A model generated the notes under the pieces. It was not told the DNA's origin. It saw nothing but the letters and a program-made list of their open reading frames with translations, and ran no database searches. From NCBI GenBank assembly GCA_001802565.1, contig MGYS01000009.1:80202-117098 (forward strand): a stretch of 36,897 nt of DNA. Direction: 5' to 3'. The translations under genes were made by a program, and so were the position numbers. This DNA comes from Gammaproteobacteria bacterium RIFCSPLOWO2_02_FULL_57_10 (GTDB taxonomy: Bacteria > Pseudomonadota > Gammaproteobacteria > Pseudomonadales > Pseudohongiellaceae). Of the stretch, positions 4,695 through 29,704 are shown in pieces. Numbering within the stretch: the stretch's first letter is position 1; every line of letters begins with the position of its first letter.

Positions 4695-4805
4695 TCGGTG
4701 ACTGTCGCCGAGCATGCCTCTCGGCAAAGTGCAGAGTAATTCCGGCTTTGCCTGAGGGGTGTAAACAATCCACTTAAAGATGATGACTACGATAAAAATG
4801 GAGTA

Positions 4806-4940
4806 CTAGGGTTCCGGCATTGTAGAAGATGCGACTGGTCCGAGAGTACTCGACCTTTCAAGCTGGGTTCTCTCAGAGTAAACGAACTTCAGTATTAATC
4901 TTTTGTAAGGTTACACGGCGGGACAAAAGCCCGGGAGGAT
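4806..4940 (+). promoter_or_regulatory. Guanidine-I (ykkC subtype 1) riboswitch
   Basis: The hallmark blocks of the ykkC class appear in order: CTAGGGTTCCG (4806-4816), ACTGGTCCGAGAG (4834-4846), a variable stem (about 4850-4910), then ACACGGCGGGAC (4913-4924) and AAAAGCCCGGGAGG (4925-4938). This aptamer class binds guanidinium and normally turns genes on. It sits 61 bases upstream of the first operon gene. A small hairpin CTGACA/TGTCAG follows at 4944-4963 and could be part of the expression platform, but it lacks a long U-tract, so the switching mechanism is unclear. Confidence 0.95.
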
Positions 4941-6053: not shown

Positions 6054-6087
6054 TGTCACAAGTCGAGCATTCCGTCCTCGTGACATT
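6052..6087 (+). other. Stem-loop after the binding-protein gene
   Basis: AATGTCAC (6052-6059) pairs with GTGACATT (6080-6087) around a 20-base loop, starting at the stop codon of the binding-protein gene. There is no strong U-tract. Such hairpins after binding-protein genes often stabilise the upstream mRNA or reduce downstream expression. Confidence 0.55.
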
Positions 6088-6104
6088 TTAAGAAGGGTAT
6101 CTCC

Positions 6105-6920: not shown

Positions 6921-6928
6921 GAAACGGT

Positions 6929-8485: not shown

Positions 8486-8507
8486 AAGAGATATTTGAGG
8501 CATTAAC

Positions 8508-9152
8508 ATGATTAAAGAAAGCGACCTAGCCCTGGCTGACGCCAAATTCCGCACGAAGGTGGATGCCGGGAACTATTACATTCAGACCATCAAAGTGGGT
8601 GAAACCATCCGCATTATTGACCTGGAAGGCAACCAAGCAGCAGACACCCTGTTTTATAACGCTCAGGATCCAAGCGAACGTTACAGTGCCAGCGACACTA
8701 TCAGGGAAGCGGCGGCACTTTATCTCACCACGGGCTCCATTTTAAAAACCAACCTTAACAGGGATTTGCTTGAGATAGTGGCCGACACCTGTGGGCGACA
8801 CGATACCGTGGGCGGCGCCTGCTCAACAGAATCCAACACAGTGCGCTACGATCTGGAAAAGCGCTGCATGCACGCATGCCGCGACAGCTGGTTGCTGGCC
8901 ATCGCTGAACACCAGGAATACGGCCTGGCCAAGGAAGACATCGGCCACAATATAAATTTCTTCATGAATGTGCCTGTTACACAAGATGGGAAATTGCGAT
9001 TTGCCGATGGTGTATCGGGGCCGGGCAAGTATGTCGAGCTGACAGCAAAAATGGATACGATCGTTTTAATTTCGAATTGCCCGCAATTGAACAATCCTTG
9101 TAATGCCTACAACCCTACACCAATTGAAGTTGCTGTATGGGCAGCGGCATAG
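8508..9152 (+). CDS. DUF1989 protein, carboxyguanidine deiminase subunit (UAAP1 type)
   Basis: This 214-residue partner of the preceding DUF1989 protein is the 'urea carboxylase-associated protein 1' type. Typical blocks are [58 protein letters not shown] with its Cys/His residues, and [19 protein letters not shown] near the C-terminus. It shares the DUF1989 fold with its neighbour, so the pair arose by an ancient duplication and should form the heteromeric deiminase acting on carboxyguanidine. It is cytoplasmic and directly precedes the carboxylase gene, with a 92-base gap that shows no convincing promoter. Confidence 0.9.
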
Positions 9153-9244
9153 GCCGCATAAGAATATAAGTTCAATAACGCGCAGGACGACCTGCTGGCG
9201 TTTTCAGTAATCCTGGGACGACCCACGTCAGACAGAGAGTAGTC

Positions 9245-12200: not shown

Positions 12201-12844
12201 CCTACATGTGTGTGTACGGCATGGAAGGTCCGGGGGGCTATCAGTTTGTCGGCAGAACCTCGCAGATGTGGAATCGTTACAGAAAGACTGCCGAGTTCTC
12301 GGAGCCGTGGTTGCTGCGTTTCTTCGATCAGATTCGCTTCTACGAAGTCAGTGCTGATGAGCTCGCCGAGTTCCGGCGCGACCTACCCAAAGGCCAGGTC
12401 GCTCTGCGCATCGAAGAGTCCGAGTTTTCACTATCTCTTTACGAAAGCGGACTGACGGAGAACAAAGACAGCATTGCGACATTCATGGCAATGCGAGAAC
12501 AGGCTTTTGAGGAAGAGTTACAGCGTTGGCGCGATAACGGCCAGTTTACCTTCACTCCCCCGGAAACGAATGAAAGTAACGCCGATATTAGTGAAATCCC
12601 AGCAGGAGTATTACCGATAGATAGCTCAGTATCTGGCAATGTCTGGAAGGTTGAGGTGGAAGAGGGTGAGAGTGTCAGCGCAGGACAAACGCTGATGATC
12701 CTGGAGTCCATGAAGATGGAAATCGAGATTCATGCTCAACAAGCAGGAAAAATAACCAAGGTCCTGGTTGGCGAAGGACATGACGTCCAAGCTGGCCAGT
12801 GCCTGATATGGCTTGAACAACAGAAAGAGGCTAACGATGACTGA
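9245..12844 (+). CDS. Biotin-dependent guanidine (urea-type) carboxylase
   Basis: This 1,199-residue multidomain enzyme carboxylates its amide/guanidine substrate with ATP and bicarbonate. In order: biotin carboxylase (about 1-450; HPGYGFLSEN at 79-88, ATP-grasp loop KSSAGGGGIGMQ at 157-168); two carboxyltransferase halves homologous to KipA/KipI and 5-oxoprolinase subunits (about 455-765, opening LRVLSAGTQTTIQDYPGRLG; about 780-1010, with GLGDVYLGAP and GGAYMCVYGMEGPGGYQ); and a biotinyl domain (about 1125-1195) with ESMKM and biotinyl Lys near 1157. Its length matches bacterial urea carboxylases, without the allophanate hydrolase fusion seen in yeast. The guanidine-I riboswitch and DUF1989 pair point to guanidine as the physiological substrate; urea remains possible. 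The next gene starts 8 bases before this one ends. Confidence 0.93.
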   Translation: MFKRVLVANRGAIATRIIRTLKKLNIESVVVYHEKDQDSLHVQHADISVSLGGGSVAETYLNQEKIIQIAKENQAEAIHPGYGFLSENTTFVEKCESHGLVFIGPTPDQMNVFGLKHLAREAAQNADVPMLPGSPVLESIESAVTWAEKVGFPVMLKSSAGGGGIGMQVCRDVNALKGAWDSVKRMSANYFSNDTVFLEKYIVNARHIEVQIFGDGRGNAIALGERDCSAQRRNQKVIEECPAPNLSQDLREAMHRTAETLMASVQYRNAGTVEFIFDIDAQSFYFLEVNTRLQVEHGVTEEVYDVDLVEWMLKLAANEMEPLDSIAPNLTPSGHAIQVRLYAEDTTQDFQPSAGLLSDVFFPSADYLRVDTWVESGIEVPSLFDPMLGKLIVFSSTREDALIKLIEVLQQSRVYGIETNLAYVASVLSTDLAQKGLLLTKTLASHTFQSHSLRVLSAGTQTTIQDYPGRLGYWHVGVPPSGPMDSVSFRLANRLLNNPADAAALEMTLSGPTLQFQSDTVITITGADMQATLDGLPVPRYQTVPVSAGQVLGFGKVLGQGARSYLAIAGGIQVPTYLESKATFTLGQFGGHAGRALRTGDVLHLSSPDAVASAALAIPEIPEVMELRVIYGPHGAPDFFTDADISEFFASEWKVHYNSSRTGVRLIGPKPAWARPSGGEAGMHPSNIHDNAYAFGTVDFTGDMPVILGPDGPSLGGFVCPATVITADLWKLGQLSAGQRLKFVPVSYEAAVAAEASQAAAIEQRRLPPADTDPEPDELGTPIVKRMQWEDDELVCRLAGDHFLLIEVGPMVLDIPRRFRVHALMLALEELGVSGVRELTPGIRSLQIHYDSQKIQLSQLLDIIEKTAQSLTTGDLTVPSRVVYLPLSWDDEACKLAIKKYMQSVRADAPWCPSNLEFIRRMNGLDSIDDVKDIVFNASYLVMGLGDVYLGAPVATPVDPRHRLITTKYNPARTWTAENSVGIGGAYMCVYGMEGPGGYQFVGRTSQMWNRYRKTAEFSEPWLLRFFDQIRFYEVSADELAEFRRDLPKGQVALRIEESEFSLSLYESGLTENKDSIATFMAMREQAFEEELQRWRDNGQFTFTPPETNESNADISEIPAGVLPIDSSVSGNVWKVEVEEGESVSAGQTLMILESMKMEIEIHAQQAGKITKVLVGEGHDVQAGQCLIWLEQQKEANDD

Positions 12845-14651
12845 CATACTTGATTTGCGCATAGCAGAAGTACACGACGCTTATGCCAATGGACGGGAAA
12901 CGCCCGAATCCTTGATTGCCAAGCTTCGCACCCAGGCTCTGGCCCAAAGTCAGTTTAATGCATGGATCTACTTGTTAAGTGAACATGAGCTCCAGGTTTA
13001 CTTGGATGCCCTAAAGCTCAAGCCTTTTGAAGAATCTCCGCTTTGGGGCATCCCTTTTGCGATCAAGGATAATATCGATCTCAAAAATGTACCAACCAGT
13101 GCTGGCTGCGAAGCTTTTACTTACACACCCGGACGATCCGCAACGGTTGTTGAGCTGCTTATTGACGCCGGTGCCATACCACTGGGCAAAACCAACCTTG
13201 ATCAATTTGCTACCGGCCTTGTGGGCACTCGTTCTCCTTTTGGTGAAGGCAAGAACGTCTTTAACCCGGACTATATCAGTGGCGGCAGCAGTGCGGGTTC
13301 CGCCATCGCAACAGCGCTGGGTCAAGTCTCTTTTGCTCTTGGTACTGATACTGCTGGGTCAGGGCGAGTACCTGCTGCTTTTAACAATTTGATTGGTCAC
13401 AAACCGACTAAAGGCCTGCTGAGTACCAGCGGAGTGGTGCCTGCCTGTAAGTCTTTGGACTGTGTGTCCATTTTTGCGCTAACCACAGAAGACGCCGTGC
13501 GGGTTTTGGACGTCGCAACGCTCGCAGATGACAACGATCCCTACTCACGAAAAAACATCACATTCAATACGCAACCCTACTGGAGTGATAAAGCACCGGA
13601 AGCCTTTCGCTTCGGAATTCCTGATCAACTTGAGTTTGATGATGTGCGGGCAGAAGAATTGTTTCATATTGCTTGCCAGCAGCTTGAGGCGCTTGGAGGC
13701 CAATCCGTTACGATTTATTTTGAGCCTTTCATGAAGACAGCGCGTCTGCTCTATGAAGGTCCCTGGGTTGCAGAGCGTGCATGGGCAACACAAGATGTTA
13801 GCCCCAGTGCAATGTTGCCGATAATTCAGGACATTCTAGCGACAACAAAGAAATTTGGGGTGACCGATGTGTTTGATGCGCAGTATAAACTGCAAGCTTT
13901 AAAACGAATCTGCGATCGCGAACTGGATCAAGTTGACTTTGTAGTGACGCCAACAACCCCCACTTGCTATCTCAGGTCTGAGATAGCACAACAACCAGTT
14001 GCATTGAACTCCAGACTTGGCACCTACACGAATTTTATGAATCTGCTCGACTACGCTGCCACTGCAATCCCGGTTGGACGATTGAGTTCACAAGTCAGTT
14101 GGGGAGTGACTTTGTTCGGCAAAGCCTTTACCGATATTCGCTTATTGAGTTTTGCCGGAGCATTACAGAGGCAACTCAATCTGCCCTTAGGCGCCACGCC
14201 ACACACCTTGCCAGCACAATCGGTAAAACCTGCCCGTACTGCGCCTGCGGAGTCAGTTGCAGTTGTTGTGTGTGGTGCCCATTTATCGGGACAGCCGCTA
14301 AATTGGCAATTACAGGATCGCGGCGCCACACTCAAAATGAAAACCCGTACAACCCAGGCCTATGCCTTGTTCGCACTGCCGGACGGAAAGCGCCCCGCGC
14401 TTGTTCAAAAAGAAACCGGCTCTGCCATTGAAGTGGAAGTCTGGCAATTGCCGATGGCAGAGTTTGGCAGTTTTGTAGCGGGTATTCCGTCGCCACTTGG
14501 AATCGGCAAGGTAGCTCTGGAAACAGGAGAATGTCTTCCGGGTTTTATTTGTGAAGAAGGTGGGATTGCTGATGCTGAAGACATATCACATTTTGGTGGG
14601 TGGAGAGCCTATCTGGCGTTTTGCTCCACCCGGAAATTAAAAAAGGTGTGA
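12837..14651 (+). CDS. atzF: Allophanate hydrolase
   Basis: This 604-residue amidase-signature enzyme hydrolyses allophanate to ammonia and CO2, the final step of the pathway. The Ser-cisSer-Lys triad is visible: Lys77 in PFAIKDNID, cis-Ser151 in the GGSSAGSA motif, and nucleophile Ser175 in TDTAGSGRVPA. After the amidase domain (about 1-440) comes the AtzF C-terminal domain (about 470-604) typical of full-length enzymes. The ATG at 12837 overlaps the carboxylase stop by 8 bases and is preceded by AAAGAGG, so the two genes are translationally coupled. A frame-compatible ATG at 12813 is less likely. An exact 10-bp inverted repeat with a 4-base loop lies inside the gene at 13965-13988. Confidence 0.95.
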   Translation: MTDILDLRIAEVHDAYANGRETPESLIAKLRTQALAQSQFNAWIYLLSEHELQVYLDALKLKPFEESPLWGIPFAIKDNIDLKNVPTSAGCEAFTYTPGRSATVVELLIDAGAIPLGKTNLDQFATGLVGTRSPFGEGKNVFNPDYISGGSSAGSAIATALGQVSFALGTDTAGSGRVPAAFNNLIGHKPTKGLLSTSGVVPACKSLDCVSIFALTTEDAVRVLDVATLADDNDPYSRKNITFNTQPYWSDKAPEAFRFGIPDQLEFDDVRAEELFHIACQQLEALGGQSVTIYFEPFMKTARLLYEGPWVAERAWATQDVSPSAMLPIIQDILATTKKFGVTDVFDAQYKLQALKRICDRELDQVDFVVTPTTPTCYLRSEIAQQPVALNSRLGTYTNFMNLLDYAATAIPVGRLSSQVSWGVTLFGKAFTDIRLLSFAGALQRQLNLPLGATPHTLPAQSVKPARTAPAESVAVVVCGAHLSGQPLNWQLQDRGATLKMKTRTTQAYALFALPDGKRPALVQKETGSAIEVEVWQLPMAEFGSFVAGIPSPLGIGKVALETGECLPGFICEEGGIADAEDISHFGGWRAYLAFCSTRKLKKV

Positions 14652-14691
14652 TCTTCAGGTTTCGAGTTAAATTGTGAAAAAGGAGCAATCA

Positions 14692-15603
14692 ATGATTCAA
14701 GCGGTAAGGAGAATATTTCGGTCATCAACAGCAGTCAGATTTTCTTCACTGACCGCTTTGCTTCTCTTTGCACAGGGGTGTTATGCCCAAGCCGCCACCG
14801 ATCTCACTAATGTCCAGTGGATCCACGGGGCGCAGGACTGCGAAGCGGCGCGGAAAGAGCCAGGTTATGTACAGTGGCAGCAGATCCGCTACCAGACCAA
14901 TACCATCATTTTCCGCCAGAACAAGTGCTCCAACTACGAAGCACCATTCGTCTATCTATTTACAGGTGCTGAAAGGTCGCTGCTGATAGACACTGGTGCC
15001 ACCGAAGAGGGTGGTGCCAGCTTACTTGCTGCTGTCAGAGAGATCACCGACTTGCCCCTTATTGTTGCCCACTCCCATGGTCACGGTGATCATGTCAGGG
15101 GAGATTCAGCCTTTTCGGGCCAGGAAGACACGATTGTTGTCGGTGTGGGCGCTGATGCCGTGCAGGCATTCTTCGGTTTTGAAAACTGGCCGGAGGAGCA
15201 GGCCGAGCTTGAACTGGGGGGCCGCACAATAATGCTTTTGCCGATCCCCGGTCATACAGACGATGACCTGGCCTATTACGATCCGGTATCCCAGTTTGCC
15301 GTTACTGGCGACACCCTTTACCCGGGGAGGTTATATGTCAGAAATTGGTCAGCCTATCGAGCCAGCATTGCCAGGCTGAACGCCTGGATACAGGAAAAGC
15401 CGGTGTCTCACGTCTTGGGAACACATATTGAAATGACCGCAGAGGCAAACGTCGACTATCCAATTAGAACGACCTACCAGCCAGATGAGCACCCATTACC
15501 TCTGGCACCTTCTGATATCCTCAAGTTGCATGAAACTCTCATGTCGCTGGAGGCCCCCGAAAGAACCTACCTGGGCAGCTTCATCATCTGGCCAGTGGAT
15601 TGA
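14692..15603 (+). CDS. Secreted MBL-fold metallo-hydrolase
   Basis: This 303-residue metallo-beta-lactamase-fold protein has a signal peptide (cleavage likely after the Ala in CYAQA near residue 34), so it is probably periplasmic. Metal ligands are intact: HSHGHGDH at 127-134, the later His in PIPGHTDDD, the bridging Asp in VTGDTLY and a final His in LGTHIEMT. It is homologous over its full length to the two proteins encoded at 27496-29475, sharing WIHG near the start, EAPFVYLF and HIEMT. The start at 14692 is chosen over a GTG at 14674 because AGGAG lies 8 bases upstream. It follows atzF by 40 bases and may be the last gene of the guanidine operon. The substrate is unknown. Confidence 0.82.
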   Translation: MIQAVRRIFRSSTAVRFSSLTALLLFAQGCYAQAATDLTNVQWIHGAQDCEAARKEPGYVQWQQIRYQTNTIIFRQNKCSNYEAPFVYLFTGAERSLLIDTGATEEGGASLLAAVREITDLPLIVAHSHGHGDHVRGDSAFSGQEDTIVVGVGADAVQAFFGFENWPEEQAELELGGRTIMLLPIPGHTDDDLAYYDPVSQFAVTGDTLYPGRLYVRNWSAYRASIARLNAWIQEKPVSHVLGTHIEMTAEANVDYPIRTTYQPDEHPLPLAPSDILKLHETLMSLEAPERTYLGSFIIWPVD

Positions 15604-15613
15604 AGATCAAGAG

Positions 15614-16717
15614 TCAGAGCTGGTCCCAGGTAGCCCAGTCGATAGCCCTTCCTGGATAGGCCACATTCGAAAATGGCCAGCTTTGCTCTATCCACATCTG
15701 TGTCCATTCGTAAAGTATCGCATCAAATCCTGCATCAAAATCGGCCTGCGTGACCCACATTGTAACCTCGGCGTCATATCCCGGTTTGCTGCTTGGCTTG
15801 ACGTAGACGCTGCCCATTTCTCGCTCGCCATCCTGTGTGAGTACACCGTAGGCGAAAGATTCACGGCGTTCGAAACGGCCTTGCTCATTCAACATGTCCT
15901 GCATAGCCTCTTCAGCAGTGATGCCTTCATGGGGCCAACTCCCAGTACGGGAAAAAGTCTTTTGTAGATGATCAATCGATGACATGTAAGCTGCGTAGTC
16001 GATATCCACTAGTTCCGGACCAAGGGGTACCAGCTTGAAACCCCAGCCCCCGACAAGTACCGAAGGCTCGAACGCTTCCGGAATAAACGCGTCATCAGCA
16101 GCCGCTTGTTCCTTCATGGTATCCAGGAACTGTTTGTACTGTCTGTAACCGTCAGTCATGGCCCGAGAACAGTCAAGGGGTGTATCACGCACACCATCGG
16201 TACGCTTGCACGGCCCCTCCATCACCTCAGGCATATTTTCCTGAACCCACACTCTGGCATCGCGGTAAATGGGTTGATCATTGGAGCTGGTATCGACATT
16301 AACAAGAACGCCATCTTCAAATGTCAGATGAAAGGTATCCGTAACATCGAACCCTGTCTCAAGAGCCTGCACCAGATCATCCTGCACGGTGATGGGACAG
16401 GCTATCGTGCCTCCTTCTTCAAGAGCACAAGGCGTACGAACCAGTACCTTGTAATTGAGCCCTTCAGCCGAGGACTGGTAGGCGAGGATACCCGCAGCGG
16501 AATCACCCGCCTCTCTGAGAAATGATTGCAACCTGGTCGCATCAAACGAATAGAACGCATCGATCATTCCTTCCGCCTTTTCAAGGTTTGCGGCCAGTTC
16601 TGTTTTTTCAGGTTCTGTTGCCATCTCCGTGGTCACCTCCGCATCATTGGAACAAGCGGCCAGACCAAACAAACATAATGTAGAAACTGCAGCTCGTTTC
16701 TTTAATGACCTGTACAT
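15614..16717 (-). CDS. Two-domain lipoprotein: NTF2-like plus possible GNAT-like domain
   Basis: This 367-residue predicted lipoprotein has a clear lipobox (FGLAAC, Cys22), so it is membrane-anchored and faces the periplasm. Residues about 45-190 look NTF2/SnoaL-like (MIDAFYSFDATRLQSFL; GFDVTDTFHLTFEDGVLV). Residues about 215-360 resemble a GNAT-type acetyltransferase fold (SFAYGVLTQDGEREMGSVYV, then a WV strand); I base this on pattern only and give it low weight. The gene is convergent with the MBL gene, 10 bases apart, and is preceded by GGAGAATTTTCC. A second, N-terminal-only homologue (21548-22159) and two broken fragments (18538-18626 and 22455-22692) of the same family lie on this island. 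Function unknown. Confidence 0.75.
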   Translation of the reverse strand: MYRSLKKRAAVSTLCLFGLAACSNDAEVTTEMATEPEKTELAANLEKAEGMIDAFYSFDATRLQSFLREAGDSAAGILAYQSSAEGLNYKVLVRTPCALEEGGTIACPITVQDDLVQALETGFDVTDTFHLTFEDGVLVNVDTSSNDQPIYRDARVWVQENMPEVMEGPCKRTDGVRDTPLDCSRAMTDGYRQYKQFLDTMKEQAAADDAFIPEAFEPSVLVGGWGFKLVPLGPELVDIDYAAYMSSIDHLQKTFSRTGSWPHEGITAEEAMQDMLNEQGRFERRESFAYGVLTQDGEREMGSVYVKPSSKPGYDAEVTMWVTQADFDAGFDAILYEWTQMWIEQSWPFSNVAYPGRAIDWATWDQL

Positions 16718-16793: not shown

Positions 16794-18305
16794 TTAAAAT
16801 GAGTCCGCAAAATCGTCCACTAGCTCCTGCAAGGAATCCGGGGAGAGTTGACCGATATCCTTGATCACTACCGCGCCAAGCTTATTCAGTTCTGAATCCA
16901 GCAACTGTTGCACCAAATCGGTACAGCCGCCGCAGCCTGTGGATGCCAAGGTCTGAGTCTTGATTTGGGCCAAAGTAGTTGCGCCATTTCTTACTGCACT
17001 TGTAATGACCAGCTTGCATACATCGTTACAGTAGCAAATCGTATCAGTGTCGGCGAAGTCATCGACAAAAGTTCCGTCACTTTTTGTGCCGGGCAAAATC
17101 ATTTCCTGAGGATCTTCCGGAAGCTCATTCCTATTCAGCACTATTTTCAGAAAATTTTCGTAGTCACCAACATCCCCGACAAGCACTGCGCCGAGCAAGG
17201 TTTTTCCATCCTCGGAAACCACCAGGCTTTTGTATATATCTCCCGAAATATCACTGTAGGAATACGTTTTTGCACCCGGCGTGCGGGCAATAGAATCGCC
17301 AATACTCGCCACATCCACACCCAGCAATTTAAGCTTGGTGCTCATGTCTGAACCTTTGAATTTAGCTTGTCCTCCAGTTATATGTGACACCGCCACTTTT
17401 GCCATTTGATATCCAGGGGCTACTAATCCAAAAATCCGGCCTTCCCAGACGGCGCACTCCCCAATGGCATAAATATTTTTCTCGGATGTTTGGCAATGAT
17501 CATCAATCGCAATTCCGCCACGATGACCCAGGCTTATTTCGCACTTTTTAGCTAACTCATCCTGAGGGCGAATTCCCGCAGAAAAAATAATCATATCGGT
17601 TTCAAGATGGGAGCCATCGGTGAAATTCAAGCGGTATCGGTAACGTTCTCCATCACTAATTTCCAGGGTGCTTTTCTGGGTGTGAACGTTCACGCCAAGC
17701 CTTTCAATTTTGTCACGTAAAAGCTTGGAGCCCCCGTCGTCCAGCTGCACTGACATCAGTTTTGGTGCAAACTCCACTACATGAGTTTCAAGGCCCATGC
17801 CTTTTATAGCGTAGGCTGCCTCCAGCCCTAGCAAGCCACCACCAAGCACTACCCCAACTTTGCTTTGACCGCCGGAGACCTTAATCTTCTGGAGATCTTC
17901 TATTGTTCTGTACACATGACAATGTTCCTGGTCATTACCTGGAACCGGGGGCACAAAAGGATAGGAACCGGTGGCTAACACCAGCTTGTCATAGGCTTTT
18001 AAACGACCACTTTGAGTAATAATCCATTTTTCTGACTTATTAATATCAACCACTTTATCGTCAAGAATGAAATTCACACCCTTGTTGCGATAATATTCTC
18101 TCTCGGCGAGTGCCAGATCGGCAGCAGTAGAACCTGAAAAATAGGTGCTGAGATGAACCCTGTCGTAGGCCAGCCTCGGCTCTTCCGAAAAGGTGGTAAT
18201 TTCATAATCATCAGCGTTGTCGCTAGCGAGAAGATATTCGATAAACTGGTGACCAACCATACCGTTTCCGATTACGACAACCTTTTGCTTTTCCTTTGTA
18301 TTCAT
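16794..18305 (-). CDS. NirB-like FAD/NAD(P)H oxidoreductase with BFD [2Fe-2S] domain
   Basis: This 503-residue flavoprotein matches the N-terminal half of assimilatory nitrite reductase NirB: an FAD-binding GNGMVGHQ at 13-20, a second dinucleotide fold with VVLGGGLLGLEAA, an FSAGIRPQ segment, and a BFD-type [2Fe-2S] domain with Cys424, Cys426, Cys458 and Cys461. It ends at a normal stop about 40 residues later and lacks the siroheme/[4Fe-4S] reductase half of NirB (about 850 residues); no siroheme domain is encoded nearby. It is therefore more likely a stand-alone electron-transfer reductase, for example for nitrite reductase components encoded elsewhere or a ferredoxin/rubredoxin. It has its own sigma-54 promoter, fitting a nitrogen role. 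GAGAG precedes the start. Confidence 0.85.
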   Translation of the reverse strand: MNTKEKQKVVVIGNGMVGHQFIEYLLASDNADDYEITTFSEEPRLAYDRVHLSTYFSGSTAADLALAEREYYRNKGVNFILDDKVVDINKSEKWIITQSGRLKAYDKLVLATGSYPFVPPVPGNDQEHCHVYRTIEDLQKIKVSGGQSKVGVVLGGGLLGLEAAYAIKGMGLETHVVEFAPKLMSVQLDDGGSKLLRDKIERLGVNVHTQKSTLEISDGERYRYRLNFTDGSHLETDMIIFSAGIRPQDELAKKCEISLGHRGGIAIDDHCQTSEKNIYAIGECAVWEGRIFGLVAPGYQMAKVAVSHITGGQAKFKGSDMSTKLKLLGVDVASIGDSIARTPGAKTYSYSDISGDIYKSLVVSEDGKTLLGAVLVGDVGDYENFLKIVLNRNELPEDPQEMILPGTKSDGTFVDDFADTDTICYCNDVCKLVITSAVRNGATTLAQIKTQTLASTGCGGCTDLVQQLLDSELNKLGAVVIKDIGQLSPDSLQELVDDFADSF

Positions 18306-18347: not shown

Positions 18348-18363
18348 AGCAAGGAAAGTGCCA
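18348..18363 (-). promoter_or_regulatory. Sigma-54 promoter of NirB-like gene
   Basis: Read on the minus strand, TGGCAC-TTTCC-TTGCT is an exact -24/-12 match. Transcription should begin near 18336, leaving a leader of about 30 bases that contains the GAGAG ribosome site. No perfect NtrC dyad is seen upstream. Confidence 0.78.
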
Positions 18364-18635: not shown

Positions 18636-19673
18636 CTACAAACTCTTGAGGCGTTTGTCGGAATAGAAGGCCAGCATAAGCTGGTCTTTGATGGAAAGGC
18701 GAACGCCTTTGCCAGCGCCAGCGGGTCCCACCTCAGCATCGCCGCAGTAAGTGCCGAAGACGCGGTCCCAGAAAATGATGTCACAACCGTAGTTGGAATC
18801 TGCCTGACGGCGCTCCTGTGCATGGTGGCAATGATGCTGCTGTGCGGTAGCAAAGAACCAGTCCCATACAGGCATTGAAACCATAGGCAGGTTGGCATGG
18901 TTGAATTTGCCGTTCCACATGCCGAAGGCTGCTGAAACGATGAAAACTTCATCGCTGGCACCCATCAGGGCCAAAGCCATTGGAGTGCCGAGGCCAAGCG
19001 CCAGATATTCGAATGGATGGGTACGGTTGCCGCGCATGGCGCTCATCTTGGTCAGGTGATGATGGGTCGCGTGCATACGCCACCAGAACAGTGACTCGTG
19101 CTGAATCCGATGCAGCCAGTAGTAGAAAAAGCTGGAAACGAATCGGATACACAGCGCGGCGGCAATCAGCCCGAGCACTGTAGTGGGTTGAAATTCGATC
19201 TGCAGCGGAGACATATCACGCAGGGCGAGGAAGCCGTCAGAAACTGGCGTGCGATACAGGTCGGAAATGATAGGACCCCAAAGCAGGGCCCCCGAAGCCA
19301 TCCAGAACACGTCTTCCAGCATTTCGTCGGGCTTGAGCAGCCAGGACTTTTTCTTGGCCCAAAAGCGTTCTGCGATCAGCAGAAGAGGCGTGGAAAGGAC
19401 CGCAACGAACAGTGCCCATACTCGGTAGTACTCCCCACCCCATTCGTTTACCACAATGGCGGCGACCAGAAGCATTGAGCCCATCACCAGAAGCGGCTGG
19501 GGCAGCGCCCAAAGAATTGCCTTCTTGTTCCACGTCACTTTGCTGCCTTCGGTGATTATCCCTTCTTCGGTGCGCACTATTGGCTTGCCGGAGGGGCCTA
19601 TCTCGGGTGATGAGCGGTCCACCGAGTCAATCGGGTTACCCATGTCGAGAGGGTTTAAGTATTGATCAGTCAT
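18636..19673 (-). CDS. Fatty acid hydroxylase/sterol desaturase family membrane protein
   Basis: This 345-residue integral membrane di-iron enzyme carries the histidine boxes of the superfamily: His188 and His192 (HRIQH), His201 with His204-206 (HATHHH), a lone His259 (FNHANLP) and His280, 281, 283, 284 (HHCHH). Hydrophobic segments lie near 58-76, 84-101, 123-137 and 164-187. Such proteins use O2 to hydroxylate or desaturate lipid chains or sterol-like substrates; the substrate here is unknown. A 50-residue soluble N-terminal tail precedes the first helix. CAGGAG lies before the ATG. It follows the pilin-like gene by 72 bases on the same strand and is probably co-transcribed with it. Its 3' end abuts a lipoprotein-gene fragment, a sign of local rearrangement. 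Confidence 0.9.
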   Translation of the reverse strand: MTDQYLNPLDMGNPIDSVDRSSPEIGPSGKPIVRTEEGIITEGSKVTWNKKAILWALPQPLLVMGSMLLVAAIVVNEWGGEYYRVWALFVAVLSTPLLLIAERFWAKKKSWLLKPDEMLEDVFWMASGALLWGPIISDLYRTPVSDGFLALRDMSPLQIEFQPTTVLGLIAAALCIRFVSSFFYYWLHRIQHESLFWWRMHATHHHLTKMSAMRGNRTHPFEYLALGLGTPMALALMGASDEVFIVSAAFGMWNGKFNHANLPMVSMPVWDWFFATAQQHHCHHAQERRQADSNYGCDIIFWDRVFGTYCGDAEVGPAGAGKGVRLSIKDQLMLAFYSDKRLKSL

Positions 19674-22945: not shown

Positions 22946-22961
22946 TGGCATTGTTATTGCA
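22946..22961 (+). promoter_or_regulatory. Sigma-54 promoter of TonB receptor operon
   Basis: TGGCAT-TGTTA-TTGCA matches the -24/-12 consensus at all but the sixth base, with correct spacing. Transcription would start near 22973, giving a leader of about 115 bases before the ATG at 23090. Confidence 0.72.
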
Positions 22962-23089
22962 TCGTGATTGCCAAGTGCAATCCTCCGCACGCTAGAAATT
23001 TGAGCAGGCGTGGCGGATAGAGCGTTGAACATAAACCGGTAATCTGCAATGAGGGGTACAAAATGACATTTTACTACAAGGGAAACACC

Positions 23090-26000
23090 ATGAAGAAAAA
23101 GCTATTAGTTCGAGCTATAGGTGCAATCTGCGCCACCACACTGCTCGGCACCGAGGCAATGGCACAATCTGAAGCAATTGAAGAGGTGCTGGTTACCGGT
23201 TCGCGCATCTCCAGAAACAGTGCAACTGAAGCGGCTAGCCCAATTGCCGTTATCGGCGGCGAAAGCATTCGCACTGCCGGTCAGGCTGACCTGGGCGAAC
23301 TGCTTCGCGAATCGCCAGCACTGAACAACTCGCTTCCGGCCAGCTTCTCCGCTATTAGCGATGCTGGCACAACTGATGTCGACGTCGGTCTGGGTCTGCT
23401 CGACCTGCGTGGACTGGGTGCCCAGCGAACCTTGACTCTGGTTAACGGCCGCCGCCACGTGGCTGGTGGTCAAGGCACCGCGGCTGTAGACGTAAACTCC
23501 ATTCCCACAGTGATGGTGCAGCGGGTTGAAACCCTGACCGGCGGCGCTTCTGCGGTATACGGTGCCGACGCCGTATCCGGTGTTGTCAACTTCGAGTTGC
23601 GGGAAGGCGGTGACTTCGACGGTATCGAAATAACTGCCCAAACTGGTCTGTCCAGCCAAGATGACGCTAACGAAAAATATGTTGCTGCAGCGACCGGTTT
23701 CGAATTTGCTGACGGCCGGGGCGAAATGGTATTTGCCGTTGAGGGGCAATCAAACGATGCAGTTCGCTCCAGAGACCGTGCGTCATTTGCTGGACCTTAC
23801 GAGGGTAATGACATCAATCAGACTGATCAGATTGCCGCGCTTACCGGCACTAATCCGGCTGCAACCCGTGCCTTCGTGCGCCCCACAACGAATCCGATTT
23901 CCTCACCTTATGGCGTGTTCAATCTGTCCTCTGCTGACGGCTTCGGCGCGGTGCTTGACGCTGCCAATAATGCCCGTGACGGCTTGCCACAGCAGTATAT
24001 TCCCGGCACCAATGTTCCTCTGGTGCAGGTGATAACAACGCCTATCAATGGTATCCCGCGACCTTATAACCCGGGCTTCGTGTCCAACGTAAACCAGGCC
24101 TACGGTATCGGTGACGGCTTGCAGAACGTGAAGGCAGCCATCCTGCCGAAGCAGGAACGATACAACATCAACCTGAACGGCAGCTTCGATGTCAGTGAAT
24201 CGCTTACATTCTTTGTTGAATCAAAGTACGCCTACTCGAACAACGTTGACGACCTCGCCGGCGTGGACTTCAACGACGCTATTCCAATTCAGTATGACAA
24301 CCCGTACATCCCGCCCGCGCTGCGGCTACAGATTAACGAACTGGCTGCTGTAGGCGTAATTCCTGCAAGCAACCCCAACGACGGCAGCTTCTGGGGCTTT
24401 GGGTCAAGCCGCGACAGTAACGACGATATCGTGCTTACCGGCAACGACGTTGACCGGGAAACCATCCGTATTGTGGTTGGTATTGAAGGCGAGTTGGATA
24501 TAGGCAGCGGTGTCGACTATGAACTGTCTTATAATTACGGTGAGACAACGGTCGAGAACCTGAACCTCAACAAGCGTATCGAAGACCGCTTCTACGCTGC
24601 TATGGACGCGGTGGTTGATCCTGCAACCGGGGATATCGTCTGTCGCTCTACCCTGGACCCCACCGCCCAACCACCGCTGGCCACAAACATAAGCCGCGGG
24701 CGTCTGCGTACACAAACCTACCCGGTGCCTGAGTTCACTGCGACGAATGCCACCGGTAACGGACGATACGTGGGAATTTCTTCGTTCACGCCTGGTGCGG
24801 GTAGCCCCTGCGCACCGTTCAACCCATTCGGTTCGAACTCAACCTCGCAGGCCAACGCCGACTTTGTTTACCCGGACCTGCTCGATATTTCTGAGCTGGA
24901 GCAAAACATTATCTTCGGCAACATCTCTGGCGACACGGACAGCTTCTTCGAACTGCCTGGCGGCCCAATCGGTTGGTCTGCTGGCGCGGAATACAGGGAA
25001 GAGAAGAGTGCATTCATCGTGAATCAGCTCGACCTTGACCTGGTTACATGGGACGCCTCCAACGGTAACGCGAACCTGCCGATCGCTGGCGAATTCGACG
25101 TGTTCGAATACTTCTTCGAAGTCCAGGCCCCGATTATTGCCAATGAGCCTGGCATCGAATTGCTGGAAGTTACCGGTGCGATGCGGTTTGCGGATTACAG
25201 CACCGTGGGCAACAACGAGGCCTGGTCAACCGGCCTGCGCTACTCACCGGGCTTCGGTTTGACTATTCGTGGAACCTTCGGTGAAGCGGTACGTGCACCG
25301 AACATCACCGAGCTGTTCTCACCCCAGCAGCCTTCGTCCTACGGATTCCAGAACGATCCATGCTCCGTCGACAACATCAACAACGGCACATCGAATCGTC
25401 CGGGTAACTGTGCGGCTATCGGTGTCCCAGCTGGCTACGATGTGAACGACTACATCACAGCTGGTATTCCGGGTGTGACGGGTGGTAACCCCGACCTGAA
25501 CCAGGAAGAGGCAACAACGTTTACAGCTGGTATCGTCTATGAGCCTGCCTTCGTCGAAAACCTGACCTTTATCGTTGACTACTACTCAATCGAGATCGAA
25601 GGTGCGATCGATAGCTTGTCCTCGGTGGCTATTTCAGAGCTCTGTGTTGACCTGCCGTCCGTCAATAACGATTACTGCGGGCTAATCCAGCGTGCGCCTG
25701 AAGGTTTCATTACCTATCACCAGTCTGGTCAGGTAAACCTGGCTGCGTTCGAATTGGAAGGTATCGACTTCGGTGTTGATTATGGCTTCGAGCTGTCTTC
25801 TCTGGGTCTGGATGACTGGGGCGGTATGGACTTCAGCTTGCAAGGTACTCACATGCTTGGCTTCGATGAGTTTCAGGATCCTCTGGATCCCTCTATCTTC
25901 GAGAGCCGCATGGGTGAATTTTCCTATCCCGAGTGGATCGTTAACGCCCGTGCCAGCTGGACACTCGGTGATCTGAGCCTGAGCTGGGCTGGTCGTTGGG

Positions 26001-26248
26001 AGGAAAGTCAGCTTCTGTCTGGTATCTCCAACCAGCAGATCAATGCAAACCCGCTGTTCGTCGATCCTTCGCAGACTGGCGATTCATGGGTGCATGACAT
26101 CAACTTCGCCTACATCTTCAGCGAAAGCATCAATATCTACGGTGGTCTGAACAACGCCTTCGACGAGGAACCCTACCTGGGCACGCTGTCTCGCCCAGCC
26201 GGTCCTCGCGGTCGCTTCGGCTTCGTAGCAGTGAACTTCAAAATCTAA
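23090..26248 (+). CDS. TonB-dependent outer-membrane receptor
   Basis: This 1,052-residue outer-membrane transporter has a signal peptide (MKKKLLVRAIG, cleavage after AMAQ), a TonB-box-like EEVLVTGSR at 31-39, a plug domain with DLRGLGAQRTLTLVNGRR and GGASAVYGADAVSGVVNF, and a large beta-barrel ending in the aromatic-rich GRFGFVAVNFKI typical of outer-membrane sorting. The start at 23090 is preferred over 23063 because it gives a regular signal peptide. It resembles the large plug-and-barrel receptors common in marine and soil gammaproteobacteria; the ligand cannot be predicted. It is led by a sigma-54 promoter and followed by a strong terminator, then HupE/UreJ and two MBL-fold genes on the same strand, with which it may act in uptake. 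Confidence 0.93.
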   Translation: MKKKLLVRAIGAICATTLLGTEAMAQSEAIEEVLVTGSRISRNSATEAASPIAVIGGESIRTAGQADLGELLRESPALNNSLPASFSAISDAGTTDVDVGLGLLDLRGLGAQRTLTLVNGRRHVAGGQGTAAVDVNSIPTVMVQRVETLTGGASAVYGADAVSGVVNFELREGGDFDGIEITAQTGLSSQDDANEKYVAAATGFEFADGRGEMVFAVEGQSNDAVRSRDRASFAGPYEGNDINQTDQIAALTGTNPAATRAFVRPTTNPISSPYGVFNLSSADGFGAVLDAANNARDGLPQQYIPGTNVPLVQVITTPINGIPRPYNPGFVSNVNQAYGIGDGLQNVKAAILPKQERYNINLNGSFDVSESLTFFVESKYAYSNNVDDLAGVDFNDAIPIQYDNPYIPPALRLQINELAAVGVIPASNPNDGSFWGFGSSRDSNDDIVLTGNDVDRETIRIVVGIEGELDIGSGVDYELSYNYGETTVENLNLNKRIEDRFYAAMDAVVDPATGDIVCRSTLDPTAQPPLATNISRGRLRTQTYPVPEFTATNATGNGRYVGISSFTPGAGSPCAPFNPFGSNSTSQANADFVYPDLLDISELEQNIIFGNISGDTDSFFELPGGPIGWSAGAEYREEKSAFIVNQLDLDLVTWDASNGNANLPIAGEFDVFEYFFEVQAPIIANEPGIELLEVTGAMRFADYSTVGNNEAWSTGLRYSPGFGLTIRGTFGEAVRAPNITELFSPQQPSSYGFQNDPCSVDNINNGTSNRPGNCAAIGVPAGYDVNDYITAGIPGVTGGNPDLNQEEATTFTAGIVYEPAFVENLTFIVDYYSIEIEGAIDSLSSVAISELCVDLPSVNNDYCGLIQRAPEGFITYHQSGQVNLAAFELEGIDFGVDYGFELSSLGLDDWGGMDFSLQGTHMLGFDEFQDPLDPSIFESRMGEFSYPEWIVNARASWTLGDLSLSWAGRWEESQLLSGISNQQINANPLFVDPSQTGDSWVHDINFAYIFSESINIYGGLNNAFDEEPYLGTLSRPAGPRGRFGFVAVNFKI

Positions 26249-26271
26249 GTCGATGTAGAAGATAGAAAACT

Positions 26272-26299
26272 AAAAGGGCGCTCTTCGGAGCGCCCTTTT
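26272..26299 (+). terminator. Intrinsic terminator after the receptor gene
   Basis: AAAAGGGCGCTC (26272-26283), tetraloop TTCG, then GAGCGCCCTTTT (26288-26299): a 12-bp perfect stem with a UUCG loop, ending in a short T run. It lies 23 bases after the receptor stop. Since no promoter is seen between it and the next gene 30 bases on, readthrough must occur or expression of the next genes is attenuated. Confidence 0.88.
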
Positions 26300-26329
26300 C
26301 CACAGTCTTGGTTTTCCAGGAAAGCAGGA

Positions 26330-27496
26330 ATGAGGCTATACAAAGTTATCTGCGGGTTATGTTTGTTGTTTATAACAACCGTTGCCCAAGCTCACCTCCT
26401 GAACATGACAGACCTGCACCTGGATACTACAAATCCAGAAGCAGTTACCTTGCGAGTCAAAATAGACTTGGGACAGTCTTTGTTATCACCGCAAGAATAC
26501 TGGCGTACGGTGAATATGGACTCCCGTGAACAGTTGGTAAACCTTGAGCCCGCGGTCAATAAATTGCTGGATGGTCTCGGCATTTTCGTTAACGGTGTGA
26601 CAGCTGCCGCCACCCTGGAAACCTGGAGCCTAACTGCGGCATCGCTTGAAGCCATTGAAAACCCTCTCTCTCCTCAAATGGCAGAGCTTACATTCAACTT
26701 TGGCAACTTGGGATTGGAGTCCTCAACTGCGCTAGCCAATGCATCAATCGAACTGCGCATTGCCGACTGGCTGGAGGTTCCTTGGCCAGCCTTACTGCGC
26801 ATCGATTCCGCCTCACGCCAGCTACCCGTATCTCGACTGCTAACAAGTAGTGATCGCAGCAGTCGATCAGTGCCACTAAGCGCGGATTCTGCGGTAGCTG
26901 GTTCGTCGTTTGCGGCGAAGCTGGCAACGGCATTTCAGAGTTGGATACCGGGCTTGAGTTGGTTGGCAATCGGATTTCAGCACATCATTCCGTGGGGCTT
27001 GGATCATATCGTGTTTGTTTTGGGCTTGTTCTTTCTGTCTACACGGTTGTCGACACTATTCTATCAAGTTAGCTGTTTTACCGTTGCGCATTCACTGTCG
27101 CTTGGACTTGCCACTCTGGGCATGGTGTCAGTGCCGGCAAGCATCGTAGAACCTCTTATTGCAGCCTCGATTATCTATATTGCAGTTGACAACCTTTACA
27201 GCAATTTTTTAGCGCGCTGGCGATTAGTCGTAGTGACACTGTTTGGACTGCTACATGGTTTAGGCTTTGCTTCGGCGCTGTCTGAACTCATGTTGCCCGC
27301 AGAAAACTTTTACACAGCCCTGTTGATGTTCAACCTTGGGGTTGAAGCAGGTCAGATTGCAGTGTTGGTATTGGCTTTTGCAGCAGTTGGCTGGCTGCGT
27401 AGCTGGACTGCTTACACTGAACGCGTCGCTCGTCCGGCTACTGTCACGATTGCTGGTGTGGGTACTTATTGGTTATTAAAGCGAGTACTATTTTAA
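26330..27496 (+). CDS. HupE/UreJ family membrane protein
   Basis: This 388-residue protein has a signal peptide (cleavage near AQAH22), a periplasmic domain of about 180 residues, then six or so C-terminal helices of the HupE/UreJ_2 type. Family marks are GFQHIIPWGLDHIVFVLGLFFL, read as GFQHIIPWGLDH then IVFVLGLFFL, FTVAHSLSL, VEPLIAASIIYIAVDN, FGLLHGLGFASAL and FNLGVEAGQ, with conserved His, Asp and Glu that could bind a metal. Classical HupE/UreJ proteins are nickel permeases, but no urease or hydrogenase gene is present here, so the metal and role are open. AGGAAAGCAGGA precedes the ATG. Its stop overlaps the next start by one base (TAATG), so it is translated with the MBL gene. Confidence 0.88.
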   Translation: MRLYKVICGLCLLFITTVAQAHLLNMTDLHLDTTNPEAVTLRVKIDLGQSLLSPQEYWRTVNMDSREQLVNLEPAVNKLLDGLGIFVNGVTAAATLETWSLTAASLEAIENPLSPQMAELTFNFGNLGLESSTALANASIELRIADWLEVPWPALLRIDSASRQLPVSRLLTSSDRSSRSVPLSADSAVAGSSFAAKLATAFQSWIPGLSWLAIGFQHIIPWGLDHIVFVLGLFFLSTRLSTLFYQVSCFTVAHSLSLGLATLGMVSVPASIVEPLIAASIIYIAVDNLYSNFLARWRLVVVTLFGLLHGLGFASALSELMLPAENFYTALLMFNLGVEAGQIAVLVLAFAAVGWLRSWTAYTERVARPATVTIAGVGTYWLLKRVLF

Positions 27497-28485
27497 TGGG
27501 TCTAATTAAACACTCTGAAAAACTACGCGCCATCGCAGGTATTGCGACGGTTGCCTCCTTGTTACTGGTTTTTGACGTGGCGTTTTCAGCCATGGCGCCA
27601 CCACGCTTGGCTTTCCCTCTCGATGAGCGAGCACCTGGTGAATTTCCCGATAGCTGGATACATGGCTCCAAGTCAGCAATGGACAACGATGATCCAGCAG
27701 TCCAAGTGCATGCTTATAACGAACACACCTATATTCTCCGCGAGAACAAGGCGATAAATTACGAGGGTGCATTCATGTACCTGTTTTTTGGCAATGAGGT
27801 AGCCATGCTGATTGATCAGGGCTCTACTTCTTCGCCTGCGCTATTTCCTCTTCGCGAAGTAGTCGATGAAATCATTGATGGTTGGGAAGAGCGTAACGGC
27901 CAAGAGAATATTGAGTTGATTGTTGCCAACAGTCATTTGCATGGTGACCACTACGCTGCATGGAATCAGTTTGTCGATCGGCCCAATACAGTCATGGTTG
28001 GATTGACCCATGAAGAGGTGATGGCATTTTGGGGGATTGATAATTACCCGCAGCAAATTGTTAACTTTAATCTTGGCGGAAGGGAGTTGGTAGTAACAGG
28101 AACCCCGGGACATCAGGGGTCAGAGTTGGCGATTTATGATGGCTGGACCGATCTCCTATATACGGGCGATATGTTCTATCGCGGTCGCCTCTATATTGAG
28201 GACTGGAATGCATGGGCTGCAAGCATTCAAAAACTGCGCAGTATTGCGGATCAAAACCCTGTCGTACATCTGGTAAATAATCATATAGAAATGACCACAG
28301 AACCTGGGGTCGACTATCCAGTTGGCACAACTTGGCAGCCCAGCGAACCGCCTATGCAGATGACTCTTGAGATGCTTGATCAAGCCGTTGAAGCAAGCTT
28401 CGAAATTGAAGAACCTGGCATATATACCTACGATGATTTTCTGATTTATAACCAGGTGCCCTGGTCATACACAACGGACCAATAG
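27496..28485 (+). CDS. MBL-fold metallo-hydrolase with intact metal site
   Basis: This 329-residue protein carries an N-terminal signal or anchor segment (about 12-32), so it is exported. Metal ligands are intact: HLHGDH with His147, His149, Asp151, His152, then His206 (TPGHQGSE), Asp225 (YTGDMFY) and His263 (NNHIEMT). It is homologous to the MBL proteins at 14692-15603 and 28495-29475, sharing WIHG, YNEHTYILR and HIEMT. The ATG overlaps the HupE/UreJ stop by one base, so I use 27496 rather than the frame-compatible 27469. It is part of the HupE-MBL-MBL transcription unit. The substrate is unknown; the fold covers lactamases, lactonases and other hydrolases. Confidence 0.86.
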   Translation: MGLIKHSEKLRAIAGIATVASLLLVFDVAFSAMAPPRLAFPLDERAPGEFPDSWIHGSKSAMDNDDPAVQVHAYNEHTYILRENKAINYEGAFMYLFFGNEVAMLIDQGSTSSPALFPLREVVDEIIDGWEERNGQENIELIVANSHLHGDHYAAWNQFVDRPNTVMVGLTHEEVMAFWGIDNYPQQIVNFNLGGRELVVTGTPGHQGSELAIYDGWTDLLYTGDMFYRGRLYIEDWNAWAASIQKLRSIADQNPVVHLVNNHIEMTTEPGVDYPVGTTWQPSEPPMQMTLEMLDQAVEASFEIEEPGIYTYDDFLIYNQVPWSYTTDQ

Positions 28486-28494
28486 AGGCTAGCA

Positions 28495-29475
28495 ATGAAA
28501 AAATTATTTCTCGTCCTGGCCATCGTGCTAGTCAATGTTCAAAGCCAAGCTCAAATTTCATTCGACAGAGAAACGGCAGCGCCTGGCAATCTCCGGTTCA
28601 CTTGGATCCACGGCAGTCTGTCTGCTAAAGCTAATACTGATGTGCGTATCCAGGTACACCGATATAACGAGCATACCTACATTCTCAGACAAAACCCTGC
28701 GATTCACTGGGAAGCGCCTTTTATGTACCTCCTCATGGGTAACGAGCGTGCCTTGCTGCTCGATACAGGCGCGACCGAAGAAGCCGAGTACTTCCCACTG
28801 CGTGAGGTCGTGGATCAGGTATTAACCAGGTGGTCAGATGCGCAAGGAATTGAAATGCCTGAGCTTCTTGTATTGCCACTTGGTTCTGATCAGTCGCAGC
28901 TAGGCGCACTTGGCCAATTCAATGGTCGACCCAACACCGTGATAATACCGCCTACGGAAGAGTCACGAGATCAGCTTTTTGGTGAGGGATGGCATGAAGG
29001 CGGCCAACTTGACTTAGGTGGGCGCCTGTTGGAAGTTTTGCCAACCCCAGGTTTAGACACTGCTGCCATGAGTCTCTATGACCCTTGGGCCCAGCTTATG
29101 TTCACTGGCAATGCCTTCTATCCTGGTCGGCTGGTAATTAGAGATTTTAAGGACTACCGCCAATCACTCAGAGCTCTAGTCAAACTTGCTGATACCAAGC
29201 CCGTTTCCATGATCCTTGGTGGGCGTATCGAAATGACAAGTCAGCCTGGCATGGATTACCGGCTACGGACGAATTTTCGACCCAATGAACATTCATTGCA
29301 ATTGAGTGTGAGACATCTGGAGACAGCATTACAGGCAGTAACTCTGATCAATGGCACAACAGATATCCGAGTTCTGAACGATTTGATTCTCATGCATGGG
29401 GTAGGCCGTGGCGCACGCGACTCTGGTTCTCCGGTGTTCATACCGGAGCAGTTTAGAGCGCCCAATACCCGCTAG
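28495..29475 (+). CDS. MBL-fold pseudoenzyme (all metal ligands replaced)
   Basis: This 326-residue secreted protein (signal peptide, cleavage near SQAQ20) follows its paralogue by 9 bases and is alignable over its whole length. All expected ligands are lost: the HLHGDH block is GSDQSQ (130-135), the later His is Leu187 (TPGLDTA), the bridging Asp is Asn206 (FTGNAFY) and the last His is Arg244 (GGRIEMT). The rest of the fold, including WIHG, YNEHTYILR and the RIEMT tail, is kept and the frame is open, so it looks like a selected non-catalytic partner or binding protein rather than a decaying gene. A regulatory or complex-forming role with the active paralogue is inference. Confidence 0.85.
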   Translation: MKKLFLVLAIVLVNVQSQAQISFDRETAAPGNLRFTWIHGSLSAKANTDVRIQVHRYNEHTYILRQNPAIHWEAPFMYLLMGNERALLLDTGATEEAEYFPLREVVDQVLTRWSDAQGIEMPELLVLPLGSDQSQLGALGQFNGRPNTVIIPPTEESRDQLFGEGWHEGGQLDLGGRLLEVLPTPGLDTAAMSLYDPWAQLMFTGNAFYPGRLVIRDFKDYRQSLRALVKLADTKPVSMILGGRIEMTSQPGMDYRLRTNFRPNEHSLQLSVRHLETALQAVTLINGTTDIRVLNDLILMHGVGRGARDSGSPVFIPEQFRAPNTR

Positions 29476-29620: not shown

Positions 29621-29704
29621 CCTGACTGCGGGAGCGGGCCTTGCCCGCGATTGTTCATCGCCTGAGTCAAATGATCGCGGGCAAGGCCCGCTCCCACAGT
29701 CAGG
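29621..29704. repeat. REP palindrome at the backbone junction
   Basis: The arms 29621-29650 and 29675-29704 are 30 bp, complementary with one mismatch, and separated by 24 bases. They contain GGGAGCGGGCC and its complement, the same class as at 3271-3336. This marks the return to backbone DNA 47 bases after the right att repeat. Confidence 0.85.

Follow-up and report, generated by a model that had tools for sequence, protein, structure and literature searches.

A candidate envelope module linked to guanidine assimilation: a TonB-dependent receptor, a HupE-type protein and an active/dead metallo-hydrolase pair in a gammaproteobacterial genome

The guanidine carboxylase operon of Vreelandella boliviensis is extended by a hydroxylase and a lyase (MgdH/MgdL) that free guanidine from methylguanidine (PMC12508155), and thus provides a precedent for add-on genes that release guanidine. 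A 2025 review describes the natural source of guanidine as 'a major gap' in its biology (PMC12186494). Here, we analyzed a 36,897-nucleotide stretch (the window) of contig MGYS01000009.1 from Gammaproteobacteria bacterium RIFCSPLOWO2_02_FULL_57_10, in which genes for a TonB-dependent receptor, a HupE/UreJ-family membrane protein (HupE) and two exported proteins of the metallo-beta-lactamase (MBL) fold, MBL1 and MBL2, share the stretch with a guanidine assimilation operon. From comparisons of sequence, we lean towards a reading in which a nitrogen-regulated envelope module would feed guanidine or a guanidino product to the guanidine carboxylase pathway, by way of envelope hydrolysis by MBL1; the envelope protein set probably serves to release guanidine from a larger compound of natural origin. 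This is apparently a peripheral module of guanidine assimilation whose composition is undescribed in the searchable open-access literature, where we found papers on guanidine carboxylase operons and none linking them to TonB receptors, this MBL family, HupE or FA_hydroxylase; subscription literature lay outside the search.

Our observations concern which genes are present, how far they are conserved and linked, their ligand states and their promoter footprints. The four predicted genes are real, all lie on the plus strand, and all four encode export-like N-termini (judged by eye):

23063..26248, plus strand: open reading frame of the TonB-dependent receptor, with a likely start at 23090 that fits the signal peptide (PF00593 and PF07715 above cut-off)
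26330..27496, plus strand: HupE_UreJ_2 membrane protein with an exported N-terminal domain (PF13795, 152 bits; cut-off 24.5, the gathering score)
27496..28485, plus strand: MBL1, an exported metallo-hydrolase with a complete ligand set (PF00753)
28495..29475, plus strand: MBL2, an exported pseudo-MBL and the pair of MBL1, lacking an intact HxHxDH

The one-base overlap reported between HupE and MBL1 is also present, the HupE stop and the MBL1 ATG sharing a base in TAATG at 27494-27498.

Like the MgdH/MgdL system, the window joins a riboswitch-controlled guanidine carboxylase operon to extra genes, one of them for an oxygenase, which in the described system release guanidine from a substituted guanidine (PMC12508155). 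MgdH is a 2-oxoglutarate (2-OG)/Fe(II) dioxygenase encoded inside the operon, whereas the window adds, in separate transcripts, genes for an outer-membrane receptor, for exported MBLs, for HupE and for a membrane protein of the FA_hydroxylase family; it has no 2-OG/Fe(II) dioxygenase gene in the interval from CgdB to allophanate hydrolase. The guanidine operon fills the first of three blocks and reads, on the plus strand:

4795..4939, plus strand: guanidine-I riboswitch (Rfam RF00442, 85.3 bits; cut-off 63)
5001..7714, plus strand: guanidine-type ATP-binding cassette (ABC) importer (substrate-binding protein 5001-6053, permease 6105-6920, ATPase 6722-7714)
7757..9152, plus strand: carboxyguanidine deiminase subunits (CgdA 7757-8485, CgdB 8508-9152)
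9179..9226, plus strand: guanidine-II riboswitch (Rfam RF01068, 32 bits, equal to its cut-off of 32)
9245..14651, plus strand: guanidine carboxylase (9245-12844) and allophanate hydrolase (12813-14651)
14674..15603, plus strand: MBL3, a third exported MBL of active type, after allophanate hydrolase

The next block, on the minus strand, holds an exported protein that we call c7, a NirB-like reductase, the FA_hydroxylase-family protein and one protein without assigned function; the last, on the plus strand, runs from the receptor through HupE and MBL1 to MBL2. The substrate-binding protein of the importer matches TIGR03427 at 551 bits (cut-off 334), and CgdA (TIGR03425, 309 bits) and CgdB (TIGR03424, 318 bits) both exceed their cut-offs. 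One riboswitch stands 5' of the importer and the other 5' of the carboxylase; the allophanate hydrolase label comes from gene position and annotated homologues. At the specificity position, which we take to be exactly that of K. lactis N1330, the carboxylase has Asp (VDFTGD) and the K. lactis urea carboxylase Asn (INFTGD). By the published rule, Asp instead of Asn at this position is the guanidine carboxylase state (PMC12186494). With riboswitches, CgdA/CgdB and the Asp-bearing carboxylase all in place, the operon is the one the original prediction had named, and the third MBL paralogue that it placed behind the operon is there. At the gathering score, no guanidine riboswitch stands directly 5' of HupE, an MBL or the receptor.

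The original prediction turned on conserved co-occurrence in other genomes, and this is what we found. A protein-pattern scan of ~85,000 genomes returned 27 loci, and in all 22 from Gammaproteobacteria MBL1 is preceded by HupE and followed by MBL2 (in the contig-truncated L027, only a HupE fragment remains). The receptor lies near HupE-MBL1-MBL2 in 14 of the 22 relatives, within the stretches examined; its position there varies, with upstream, downstream and, often, divergent placement. In 10/22, guanidine-operon genes are no more than about 10 kb away, and two loci (L065 and L089) gather the guanidine operon, hydroxylase, c7, receptor, HupE and both MBLs within 20 kb. A full-length guanidine carboxylase is found in 18 of 22 MBL1-bearing gammaproteobacterial genomes vs 10 of 44 MBL1-free relatives from the same order (Fisher p 1e-5); within family f1, the family of the window, the figures are 3/4 with MBL1 vs 5/67 members without (p 0.004). 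Class-wide sampling of 369 genomes added one further genome, with a distant MBL, and the MBL family is therefore rare. A second type of ABC importer starts at most 25 bp past the end of MBL2 on the same strand in L034 and L037, and within ~90 bp of it in L038, as if the product of the MBL were taken up next.

The two MBLs differ sharply in their ligands. MBL1 holds all seven metal ligands (H147, H149, D151, H152, H206, D225 and H263), comprising HxHxDH, the His after PG, the bridging Asp and the last His, and MBL2 has G, D, S, Q, L, N and R at these positions. The prediction of an active MBL beside a pseudo-MBL thus stands, and the two are kept as a pair in three lineages. A tree built from 49 MBLs sets active MBL1 and dead MBL2 apart, each in a clade of its own with gammaproteobacterial, acidobacterial and sphingomonad members; the seven ligands are intact in 19/19 members of the MBL1 clade, and an intact HxHxDH is found in 0/16 of the MBL2 clade. 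Distances between MBL1 proteins and between their MBL2 partners correlate (r 0.96, 16 pairs, Mantel p 2e-4), as expected for two proteins inherited together. As the MBL2 clade is kept across lineages and its distances mirror those of MBL1, the sequences argue that MBL2 has retained a function, the simplest being that of a partner to MBL1. What makes this conserved active/dead metallo-hydrolase pair of wider interest is that Gammaproteobacteria, sphingomonads and Acidobacteria have all retained its dead member. Two sphingomonad MBL1 relatives and one acidobacterial MBL2 relative start with twin-arginine-like leaders.

Metallo-beta-lactamase superfamily hydrolases (PF00753; glyoxalase II, SoxH-related) have this fold in common, and MBL1 and MBL3 share their HxHxDH...H...D...H ligands. 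The proteins studied here differ from them in that no NCBIfam cut-off is reached and that the active member is conservedly paired with a dead paralogue. Against the class B beta-lactamase model NF012229, MBL1 and MBL2 gave no match and MBL3 25 of 100 bits; against the SoxH-related zinc hydrolases linked to pyrroloquinoline quinone, MBL1 reached 28 of 300 bits (TIGR04558) and 25 of 280 bits (TIGR04559). Among solved structures, profiles built on the MBL set (threshold E <= 1e-8) and on c7 found no relatives.

The link to guanidine posited at the outset recurs in three separate lineages: Gammaproteobacteria, sphingomonads and Acidobacteria. All five MBL1-bearing Acidobacteria have a full-length guanidine carboxylase. 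Among 120 genomes of an acidobacterial order, CgdA occurs in 7/8 with an MBL1 orthologue vs 26/112 others (p 5e-4), and in 14/24 with an MBL3-like gene vs 12/88 without (p 2e-5). MBL3 is linked to the guanidine operon in G007, G016, G045 and G063 as well as in Acidobacteria.

Plasmids of sphingomonads repeat the theme with another receptor, and combine the guanidine operon, a TonB receptor, an MBL (twice as an active/dead pair) and an FA_hydroxylase-family membrane protein. Searching 72,556 plasmids for the latter (threshold E <= 1e-30) returned eight, and these are the eight whose CgdA is at least 79% identical to that of Novosphingobium sp. EMRT-2; seven also hold an MBL of the same family as those in the window. 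In all six MBL-bearing sphingomonad records examined, the guanidine operon is divergent from the TonB receptor and MBL. The order of the accessory genes varies: TonB receptor-MBL(dead)-MBL(active), divergent from the operon, in EMRT-2; MBL(dead)-MBL(active)-FA_hydroxylase-receptor in N. resinovorum SA1; receptor-FA_hydroxylase-MBL in N. humi, where FA_hydroxylase and MBL overlap by 4 nt; and a receptor with a single MBL adjoining the operon in Sphingobium sp. TomTYG65 and Novosphingobium sp. PP1Y. The sphingomonad receptors form a group of their own, 51-56% identical to that of EMRT-2, which a search with the window receptor does not detect, and were therefore probably recruited separately.

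Several points weigh against the feeding module that we prefer. The Fisher tests above count related genomes as independent. Four MBL1-bearing gammaproteobacterial genomes have no full-length carboxylase (genome completeness was not reported), and members of family f1 such as G028 carry hydroxylase and carboxylase without MBL1. None of these MBLs has a known substrate or activity, or a close solved structure. Two Streptomyces plasmids carry MBL1 homologues, and a Bradyrhizobium plasmid an MBL3-like gene, in unrelated contexts. In Acidobacteria, the MBL1-MBL2 pair and the guanidine operon lie apart, and the binding protein of the second ABC importer scores 146 bits against the TIGR03427 cut-off of 334. 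These last two points also favor a different account, in which this is a nitrogen-scavenging island with unrelated neighbors: the receptor and MBLs would serve another organic nitrogen compound, and adjacency would stem from common sigma-54 regulation and joint travel. Control by sigma-54 would indeed account for clustering. Yet the association is seen again in three lineages whose receptors differ, the sphingomonads among them without clear sigma-54 sites, and in Acidobacteria it holds at the genome level even when the genes are unlinked. We regard unrelated neighbors as an unlikely explanation, if one to be taken seriously.

One sigma-54 promoter had been proposed for all four genes. Two elements bear on this:

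22946..22960, plus strand: sigma-54 -24/-12 element TGGCATTGTTATTGC, 5' of the receptor
26272..26299, plus strand: terminator/attenuator-like hairpin between receptor and HupE (12-bp stem, UUCG loop, short T-tail, -20.5 kcal/mol)

Taken alone, TGGCATTGTTATTGC is weak evidence, its pattern occurring twice in the window vs 0.44 expected; TGGCAYN5TTGC occurs 22 times in the genome vs 4 for the reversed control, with 2 of the 22 in this island. Across relatives, an element scoring 12-14 of 14 lies 8-138 bp (mostly 90-138) upstream of every scanned receptor orthologue, and in ten gammaproteobacterial loci HupE has an element of its own (score 13-14), mostly where it does not follow the receptor. 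In L025, HupE sits behind a sigma-54-preceded reductase and c7. The sigma-54 element before the receptor is thus upheld, and with it control of the nitrogen type, which we infer from sigma-54 sequence elements and gene content. That one promoter serves all four genes is not: the window HupE lacks its own element and the nearest is that of the receptor, but the hairpin lies in between, and HupE has its own elements elsewhere. The hairpin is conserved in the close relatives L022, L004 and L023, and may act as a leaky terminator, by which HupE and the MBLs would be expressed at a lower level than the receptor. Given the hairpin and the divergent receptor arrangements in other genomes, we do not accept a one-operon reading for the whole set.

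HupE is the least certain part of the module. Its family membership is sure from sequence: it scores above the PF13795 cut-off, keeps the family motifs and has its predicted mature N-terminus at a His that is invariant in the alignment. It shares family and motifs with the HupE/UreJ nickel-cobalt permeases (PMC2667541), but is linked to MBLs and guanidine genes and not to hydrogenase, urease or B12 genes. Since the family includes Ni and Co transporters (PMC2667541), receptor and HupE might instead take up Ni, Co or Zn, possibly in chelated form, with the MBL pair as a metal store, chaperone or chelate-cleaving enzyme. The motifs and the invariant His would fit such metal acquisition, as would a CobW-like metallochaperone GTPase gene a few kb upstream of HupE, conserved in the K189A-type genomes L039, L041 and L048. 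Set against this, control is of the sigma-54 and not of a metal type, and the island uses the biotin carboxylase route and not the Ni-dependent guanidinase (PMC12186494). A B12 or siderophore receptor is rejected on cut-offs, the window receptor reaching 58.5 of 599.7 bits for BtuB. HupE was not found in the sphingomonad loci or in the acidobacterial version, and is therefore not essential to the theme; its standing as a needed component is not supported. We judge metal acquisition improbable as the purpose of the locus, and a HupE that handles metal for MBL1 within the feeding module is a guess.

The four genes had been put forward as one system, and as a set they do not appear complete: the FA_hydroxylase family and exported c7 are also members of the gammaproteobacterial island. 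The minus-strand block reads:

15614..16717, minus strand: c7, an exported (lipobox-like) two-domain protein, function unassigned, recurring in islands
16794..18305, minus strand: NAD(P)H/FAD and [2Fe-2S] reductase resembling the N-terminal part of NirB
18349..18363, minus strand: sigma-54 element TGGCACTTTCCTTGC, perfect, 43 bp upstream of the reductase
18636..19673, minus strand: FA_hydroxylase-family membrane protein of di-iron type (PF04116, 93 bits; cut-off 31)

The His boxes of the hydroxylase (HxxxH, HxxHH, HxxHH; H188, H192, H201, H204, H205, H280, H283 and H284) are invariant in 14 sequences, and in family f1 the protein (at least 57% identity) occurs in the same eight genomes that have guanidine carboxylase and in one more (p 8e-10). 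It shares family and His-box motifs with the ornithine lipid hydroxylase OlsE (NF052566), but scores 92.6 bits against that model's cut-off of 475 and is tied to guanidine genes. This resemblance, with a sulfotransferase beside the hydroxylase on three sphingomonad plasmids, raises the idea that hydroxylase and MBLs modify envelope lipids or an antibiotic under guanidine stress, with no feeding role. As TonB importer, ABC importer and sigma-54 control fit uptake, and the MBLs fall well short of the cut-off for class B beta-lactamases, we consider detoxification or lipid modification very improbable. The sigma-54 element of the reductase is retained in L022 and L025, and the enzyme is a possible electron donor or nitrogen-assimilation enzyme. 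For c7, no Pfam match exceeded its cut-off, and 3/12 relatives gave weak GNAT matches.

How might the preferred feeding module work? Every biochemical step that follows, like the partner role of MBL2 and the class of substrate, is our inference. Under nitrogen limitation, sigma-54 RNA polymerase would transcribe the receptor and HupE-MBL1-MBL2, and the receptor would carry a guanidino compound, one that is scarce or bulky, to the periplasm. MBL1, as a metal-dependent hydrolase, would cleave the compound, with dead MBL2 as heterodimer, allosteric or substrate-binding partner, and HupE may supply or recover the MBL metal. In many genomes, the membrane di-iron hydroxylase may oxidize the compound, possibly at the carbon beside the guanidino nitrogen; by analogy with methylguanidine hydroxylase (PMC12508155), hydroxylation there could yield guanidine and an aldehyde. 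Guanidine or a small guanidino product would then enter through the adjoining ABC importer and pass to guanidine carboxylase, CgdAB and allophanate hydrolase. With a receptor and exported MBLs, the opening steps are assigned to the envelope. More tentatively, these genes may encode a new outer-membrane-to-cytoplasm route for natural guanidino compounds, in which TonB import is followed by the freeing of guanidine at the envelope by an active/dead MBL heterodimer and a di-iron hydroxylase, and by assimilation through the carboxylase pathway; if true, this would reveal a natural guanidine source. Given the guanidine tie in three lineages and the presence of an outer-membrane receptor, the receptor's ligand, once found, would point to a natural guanidino compound used by bacteria. 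Direct tests are possible, as the genes are present in named strains: Aestuariibacter sp. A3R04, Novosphingobium sp. EMRT-2, N. resinovorum SA1 and Sphingobium sp. TomTYG65.

Further genes accompany the islands of other lineages. Behind the FA_hydroxylase-MBL pair of N. humi (L109, 12923-17512) lie genes for an acyl-CoA dehydrogenase and acyl-CoA carboxylase subunits; as a lead only, the carboxylase genes hint at an alkyl- or prenyl-guanidine (galegine-like) substrate. In Novosphingobium pentaromativorans US6-1 (L115, 2649-8591), the guanidine operon is preceded by genes for an APC permease, an N,N-dimethylformamidase-beta-domain protein, another MBL, a DUF3830 protein and succinate-semialdehyde dehydrogenase, possibly another guanidine-releasing module, and a TonB receptor gene lies downstream of the operon. 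A YncE-like beta-propeller gene occurs in sphingomonad and acidobacterial guanidine islands (L084-L087, L094, L098, L112-L114). Acidobacterial islands (L091-L098, L086, L087) contain a DUF1549/DUF1553 cytochrome, a DUF1501 protein, an Oar-like receptor and often an MBL. Orthologues of the cytochrome (63-100%) lie near CgdA in many acidobacterial genomes; the DUF1549/DUF1553-DUF1501 pair was rejected as a specific marker, being too common there by itself. On the Bradyrhizobium plasmid (L107, 4299-14958), the MBL3-like gene clusters with genes for a radical S-adenosylmethionine protein, a tryptophan halogenase and a LodA/GoxA-type oxidase, and the wider MBL family thus has further contexts.

Within the window, a DUF6445 protein encoded after MBL2 (29896-30504) has an HxD...H...R pattern as in 2-OG/Fe(II) dioxygenases (by eye) and is not conserved in related islands. 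Fragments 64-75% identical to c7-type genes, at 18526-18624 (plus strand) and 22461-22696 (minus strand), are decayed copies beside the intact c7. A repetitive extragenic palindrome (REP)-like inverted repeat, GCGGGCCTTGCCCGC ... GCGGGCAAGGCCCGC, lies 3' of MBL2 at 29634-29700.

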